Origin: Watersipora subatra
Taxonomy: Eukaryota > Bryozoa > Gymnolaemata > Cheilostomatida > Watersiporidae
Assembly: GCF_963576615.1 (NCBI RefSeq)
Contig: NC_088714.1
Location: 51,953,723 to 52,017,722, forward strand
Length of the DNA: 64,000 nucleotides
Direction of reading: 5' to 3'
Under the pieces are notes generated by a model that searched no databases, was not told the origin of the DNA, and saw nothing but the letters and a program-made list of their open reading frames with translations. Positions 2,844 through 44,210 of the stretch are shown piece by piece. Numbering within the stretch: position 1 is the stretch's first letter; every line of letters begins with the position of its first letter. The position numbers and the translations under genes are program-made.

Positions 2844-2966
2844 CTGGTTTACAAGTGCATGTGTAGTATCCATCAGTATTGGTGCATTCCGCATTGGGGT
2901 CGCACATGTTTAGACTGGGATCTTCACATTCATCCATATCTTCTACAGTCGGTAATTCCTCAACAA
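2844..2966 (-). CDS. Protease exon 16: calcium-binding EGF domain
   Basis: CTTTTCAG acceptor, CCAG|GTCGGT donor, 123 bases, phase 1 to 1 as is usual for EGF exons. Encodes [20 protein letters not shown] and [15 protein letters not shown]. It has the D-x-D-E-C calcium motif and a C-x-N-x4-Y-x-C hydroxylation motif. Five of the six cysteines are visible; the sixth must be in a further exon that I could not locate. Confidence 0.9.

Positions 2967-44210: not shown

Follow-up and report, generated by a model that had tools for sequence, protein, structure and literature searches.

The minus strand of the window, by which we mean the whole 64,000-nucleotide stretch of Watersipora subatra DNA analysed here, carries a genuine gene of the M12B type that runs from 44210 to 2844. 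Spliced by hand, it comprises 16 exons whose introns are all of the GT-AG kind and whose 15 junctions are all in phase, giving a joined frame of 851 codons that is free of stops and still open where exon 16 ends. The encoded protein reads, in order, signal peptide, prodomain, M12B catalytic domain, an ADAMTS-type cysteine-rich domain, two six-cysteine modules (CC modules), a Ser/Thr-rich stalk, a SEA-like region and a partial EGF domain. Three further possible exons, with starts at 41450, 40096 and 36294, were dropped, since the phases fail when they are included and the 16-exon chain is in phase without them, and a donor for exon 12 placed one base earlier breaks the frame, which the next-base donor, likewise GT, restores. 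At an E limit of 0.01, no Pfam model matched any of ten further reading frames, which are 90-137 residues long.

Exon 1 (44153..44210; it and all other exons given here lie on the minus strand) supplies the start codon and the signal peptide (residues 1-19, with a hydrophobic segment within residues 1-23). The prodomain follows in exons 2 (43257..43441), 3 (42650..42727) and 4 (40896..41043) and ends in exon 5 (39639..39804), where a basic KVKR site starts at residue 188 (residues 188-191) and the catalytic domain begins. These four exons are matched in tblastn by P0001, a predicted protein of the same species described as zinc metalloproteinase/disintegrin-like (6.5e-19, 7.0e-7, 3.0e-9 and 1.2e-6, respectively), and exon 4 also by P0002, an adt-1-like Watersipora protein (5.6e-10). 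The catalytic domain continues through exons 6 (35688..35772; P0001, 2.7e-6), 7 (33398..33493), 8 (32379..32515; P0001, 4.1e-5) and 9 (31723..31854; P0001, 4.4e-10), the last reaching as far as HEIAH, and is completed in exon 10 (29420..29581; P0001, 5.9e-15) with NLGATHD and the Met-turn. Exon 7 is placed by multiple alignment, in which the stretch NGVDARFRN corresponds to NEVDMRYRN in P0002 and to NGVDLRYQG in P0003, an ADAMTS-like protein of the gastropod Lymnaea. The zinc motif, of the HEXXHXXGXXHD type, reads HEIAHNLGATHD and starts at residue 357, and the Met-turn FIMAS follows at 380, with M382 invariant across six aligned sequences. Pfam Reprolysin (PF01421) covers residues 289-424 (6.8e-11, 43 bits against a cut-off of 20.8).

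Beyond the protease, exon 11 (24291..24426; tblastn 9.1e-7 with P0001 and 4.9e-9 with P0002) opens the cysteine-rich domain, exon 12 (22289..22396; P0002, 5.7e-4) continues it, and exon 13 (19290..19341), which lies partly inside the Pfam match and is supported by multiple alignment, closes it. Pfam ADAMTS_CR_2 (PF17771) spans residues 441-505 (5.9e-15, 55.9 bits against a cut-off of 27.3), and the solved ADAMTS-1 chain 3q2g aligns with residues 296-506 (3.3e-11). At E up to 1, neither a disintegrin domain nor a thrombospondin type-1 repeat was matched by Pfam within the 851 residues through exon 16. Exon 14 (16839..17533), matched in tblastn from the gastropod proteins P0005 (6.8e-8) and P0004 (2.0e-5), encodes the two CC modules, the stalk and the putative first half of a SEA domain. 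The stalk occupies residues 613-701, of which 43 are Thr and 23 Ser. The twelve cysteines of the CC modules are invariant in six sequences (the window protein, one other Watersipora protein and four from gastropods, P0002-P0006). No Pfam model matches the module significantly, the best being zf-CCCH_4 at 0.066, and its structure model is too poor for use (pLDDT 54.4). The paired module after ADAMTS_CR_2 (17241-17531, minus strand) is common to P0002-P0006 and may merit a family of its own.

The phase-0 intron between exons 14 and 15 (intron 14; 6404..16838, minus strand; 10,435 bases) holds transposon insertions. A pogo/Tigger-type transposase frame lies on the strand opposite to the gene (8666-10495, plus), uninterrupted over 609 aa and matching DDE_1 (6.5e-43), HTH_Tnp_Tc5 and CENP-B_N in Pfam; it is possibly a recent insertion. 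A MITE-like element of about 900 bases (12479-13377) has terminal inverted repeats of 128 nt (95%). Because these insertions explain the length of the intron at least partly, that length is no argument against splicing. Exon 15 (6211..6403; P0001, 2.3e-7) encodes the putative second half of the SEA domain, the GS of its CGSIIVD corresponding to codons 6331-6326, and exon 16 (2844..2966) encodes the beginning of a calcium-binding EGF domain (EGF_CA, PF07645; residues 820-850, 4.9e-6, 27.1 bits against a cut-off of 27), the match stopping where the exon ends. Exons 1, 7, 13 and 16 have no significant tblastn match of their own, and the putative membership of exon 16 in the gene rests on phase, order and the Pfam match. 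NCBIfam gave no match in the SEA/EGF part, and beyond the signal peptide the 851 residues contain no membrane span. In the computed exon list for positions 1-2843 of the window, judged by eye, no next EGF or membrane exon was recognisable, so that, with the EGF domain cut at the end of exon 16, the C-terminus probably lies beyond the window.

Repetitive and non-coding features accompany the gene elsewhere. Intron 5 contains three tRNA-Ser genes with anticodon GCT (36558-36639, 36998-37079 and 38585-38666), all on the minus strand, which is that of the gene, and their flanks look alike by eye, as though a longer block had been copied. Long tandem arrays of short units, likewise noted by eye, lie at 28400-29400 in intron 10 and at 46500-47400 upstream of the gene.

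A preliminary description made from the sequence had proposed 16 exons joined in phase, and our spliced chain agrees in count and coordinates; there is good support for its view that a single gene encodes an M12B protease together with a cysteine-rich domain of the ADAMTS type, a pair of CC modules and a stalk of Ser/Thr. Several of its details need adjustment. The domain search that it proposed finds Reprolysin, the cysteine-rich domain and EGF_CA at the E values given above and returns no match to Pfam SEA; the domain that it called ADAM cysteine-rich 2 is present and is properly named ADAMTS_CR_2; the "about 90 Thr/Ser residues" do form a Ser/Thr-rich stalk, in which 66 of 89 residues are Ser or Thr; and what it called a cbEGF is a Pfam EGF_CA match that extends over the first 31 of the 43 positions in the profile before the exon end cuts it off.

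Two full-length protein searches, each scoring the 7989 candidates with most words in common and with lengths of 0.55 to 1.75 times that of the query, returned 6 and 13 proteins, the latter search using an alignment of six proteins as query; together they yield 14 distinct proteins (P0001-P0014). For none of the 14 do the precomputed Pfam accessions include SEA or EGF_CA; P0007-P0014 were judged by these accessions alone, PF25379 among them, and a Pfam scan of P0001-P0006 found no SEA or EGF at E up to 0.1. With residues 695-851 as query, 94 word-sharing candidates gave none at E<=0.01. P0002 shares the prodomain, catalytic domain, ADAMTS_CR_2 and CC modules of the window protein but has a short Thr/Pro linker only and no SEA-like or EGF part. 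The gastropod ADAMTS-like proteins (Lymnaea P0003, Aplysia P0004, Elysia P0005 and Physella P0006) resemble it in M12B domain, ADAMTS_CR_2, the same CC modules and Thr/Ser-rich stretches, and differ in having no Pfam SEA or EGF. The genes for P0001 and P0002 may sit on one Watersipora chromosome.

The relation to P0001 is the most informative for the C-terminal half of the gene. This 542-residue protein is 46% identical to the query over 53% of its length (E 1.3e-123), and in tblastn against the window it matches 10 of the 16 exons at E<1e-4 (2-6, 8-11 and 15), ordered and on one strand. Together with the matches of P0002 to exon 12 and of P0005 to exon 14, this shows that the exon chain is more than chance. 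P0001 reads GEGYMFY-GYVCTAFRRYVPEISSCSVIGVSCGSMVINSTIAI, in which the end of the exon 11 homologue is followed directly by the exon 15 homologue (GYVCTAFRRY), with SCGS kept, and the edge of this join coincides with the end of exon 11 and the start of exon 15 in the window. In a single BLASTP comparison, exon 15 extended by ten residues from exon 16 is identical to P0001 at 25 of 73 positions (2e-11). The presence of an exon 15 homologue inside a protease protein that is 46% identical to ours is a strong argument against placing exon 15 in a separate gene. Since P0001 has no counterpart of exons 12-14, it supports the membership of exon 15 in the gene, and the splice from exon 14 to exon 15 itself we can only infer. 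P0001 also has no counterpart of exon 16 or of most of exon 7, and it is an automatic prediction with an unlikely Gly/Trp-rich start. The Watersipora genome project includes RNA-seq (PMC12902671). Banyai and Patthy, in the part of PMC4967905 consulted, describe new domain combinations common to two lancelets that can both be prediction errors, a case that is a standing caution here.

Whether the region formed by exons 14 and 15 is a SEA domain is the harder question, and most of the general tests are negative. Pfam SEA (PF01390) matches neither the two joined fragments nor the C-terminus of P0001 at a limit of E 10, although the HMMER filters drop most matches above 0.1, and the same model recovers the MUC1 control at 6.7e-14 (52.3 bits against a cut-off of 26.4). 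A phmmer search of the PDB matched no SEA chain. With an HMM built from seven solved SEA sequences, the joined sequence scores 0.6 bits, which 898 of the 4738 shuffles that were scored (out of 5000 made) also attain; with shuffling confined to the second half 1544 attain it, and with shuffling confined to the first half 524, in sets of up to 5000. The P0001 C-terminus is not reported at all. In hhalign against all seven, the joined sequence scores 14.6, and 94 of 1000 shuffles do as well; with P0001 added the figures are 13.9 and 97 of 1000. Leave-out controls recovered known SEA domains in four of four cases (0 of 200 shuffles each), and for the joined sequence two of the three profiles used there gave scores of just 11.2 and 11.7. 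Other results are mixed. A first hhalign run with P0001 had given 16.2, above 10 of 10 shuffles, with a nominal P of 0.036. Pairwise alignment to MUC1 gave p 0.017 and to two MUC16 repeats 0.007 and 0.065, with nothing for four other SEA sequences, in what was one of four settings (BLOSUM45 global, 400 shuffles each). When exon 14 was joined to each of 35 possible phase-0 exons (15 acceptors), exon 15 ranked 1, 2, 1, 8, 13, 27 and 14, and third on the mean across the seven SEA sequences. A structure model of exon 15 alone is too poor for use (pLDDT 50.4).

On the other hand, a profile restricted to mucin-type SEA domains (MUC1, two MUC16 repeats and mouse 1ivz), a post-hoc choice noticed during the leave-out controls, gives the joined sequence 20.3, against 13.8 and 12.3 for the halves alone and 13.8 for exon 14 read through, and none of 1000 within-half shuffles equals the joined score. 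The alignment spans the exon 14/15 junction and places GS on GS, and the true join ranks first of 42 joins to possible exons, with a thin lead (20.4 versus 19.7). On this scale the P0001 C-terminus alone scores 10.8, and TMPRSS11A, a known SEA, scores 18.4 in a leave-out test. The sequence GSIIVD at residue 771 is a motif of the GS[VI]V type where SEA domains self-cleave, and P0001 has GSMVI. According to the portion of PMC6586460 consulted, mucin SEA domains keep their fold though sequence conservation is low, and a SEA-like domain in Notch is without the self-cleavage site; given such low conservation, the silence of the Pfam model need not count as exclusion. Judged by sequence, then, a SEA domain across exons 14 and 15 is plausible and on balance probable, though statistically weak. 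Of the key join of the preliminary description, phase 0 on both sides and the transposon-bearing intron of 10.4 kb are confirmed, and the single SEA domain that it was said to build is not.

If the SEA assignment is wrong, the gene may still be as modelled, with the exon 14/15 region forming some other small domain and the GS motif a coincidence. The negative Pfam, HMM, all-SEA profile and leave-out results all point that way, and we regard this as the less likely reading but one of some weight; it has to be set against the result with the mucin-type profile, the occurrence of GSIIV here and GSMVI in P0001, both located where a SEA domain would be cleaved, and the position of the region between stalk and EGF, which is the order found in membrane mucins. 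A more drastic reading is that the protein is a secreted protease ending just past the stalk, with exon 14 as its last exon and exons 15-16 forming part of an adjacent gene of like orientation. An in-frame stop does occur 10 codons past the exon 14 donor, after VDCV, the gastropod relatives have Thr/Ser-rich stretches and no SEA or EGF match, and spurious novel architectures are known to arise when neighbouring genes are fused in automatic prediction (PMC4967905, in the part consulted). We nevertheless consider it unlikely, for the P0001 protease protein contains an exon 15 homologue that begins at the same exon edge, and the tail of exon 14, which is neither stalk nor CC module, is linked to exon 15 by the mucin-type profile.

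The join seen in P0001 could also reflect alternative splicing, in which a full form with exons 12-14 would coexist with a short form running from exon 11 to exon 15. The short form would have neither stalk nor CC modules and would retain only a small part of the cysteine-rich domain. This would be compatible with the one-gene model, and the phases allow it, since the end of exon 11, like the start of exon 15, is phase 0. It seems improbable, however, because skipping would halve both ADAMTS_CR_2 and the SEA-like region, and the witness for it is a prediction with an unlikely start that lacks most of exon 7. As for a decaying pseudogene that is intact in appearance only, the large, repeat-rich introns are what might suggest it, and 851 stop-free codons in 16 exons with GT-AG introns and an intact catalytic motif make it highly improbable.

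We therefore lean, by a little more than even confidence, towards one gene encoding a secreted M12B (reprolysin) protease in which an ADAMTS-like front sits on a membrane-mucin-type base of stalk, SEA-like region and at least one EGF domain. The combination of M12B with a mucin-type stem appears unusual, and the earlier remark that a SEA domain is out of the ordinary in this family agrees with the 14 homologues. Among the matches listed for the open-access PMC literature, no title or abstract reports an M12B protein with SEA, which is not proof of absence; PMC12960093, the one paper to contain both "SEA domain" and "M12B", uses the two terms apart from each other in the part consulted. Like the ADAMTS family, the window protein has a catalytic domain followed by cysteine-rich domain 2, but its 851 residues are without a thrombospondin type-1 repeat, and unlike the ADAM family it has no disintegrin match after the protease.

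Two known systems offer partial parallels. In membrane mucins, stalk, SEA and EGF lead in that order to a membrane span, and the window protein resembles those of the MUC3/12/13/17 type in the order of stalk, SEA-like region and EGF and in the GS at the expected cleavage place. It differs in carrying a protease, which these mucins are not known to do, and here the SEA fold and the membrane span are putative. Type II transmembrane serine proteases such as TMPRSS11D, whose SEA domain was seen among the sequences examined, and enteropeptidase have a SEA domain in the stem, and the likeness here is that of a protease on a SEA-bearing stem, putative in the window protein. Those enzymes are of the serine type, have the opposite orientation and are not known to have a mucin stalk, so that the likeness would be convergence.

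If the architecture is as we propose, the gene most likely makes an M12B protease that a mucin stem ties to the membrane and that can be shed, the anchor being predicted to lie beyond the window. The signal peptide would direct the protein into the secretory route, where a convertase would cut after KVKR and release the prodomain, and the Ser/Thr stalk, which is expected to be O-glycosylated, would keep the enzyme at a distance from the cell. Splicing of exon 14 to exon 15 would create the SEA-like module, which may cut itself between the G and the S of CGSIIVD and keep its two halves together non-covalently, so that the enzyme could be shed. The fuller version of this scheme, a cell-surface metzincin whose membrane-mucin base cleaves itself (M12B, ADAMTS-type cysteine-rich domain, stalk, SEA, EGF and membrane span), we put forward only tentatively and at less than even confidence. 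In this scenario SEA cleavage or mechanical force, and not another sheddase, would free the enzyme, which would be a metalloprotease counterpart of the SEA-stemmed serine proteases.

Should transcripts confirm the gene model, the M12B family would gain a member that stands on a membrane-mucin stem. If true, this would be another, separate way of arriving at a protease that is tethered yet sheddable, beside the ADAMs with their own membrane span and the SEA-stemmed serine proteases, and it would represent domain shuffling through phase-compatible exons in a little-studied lophotrochozoan lineage. SEA cleavage as a control of enzyme release would then become testable.
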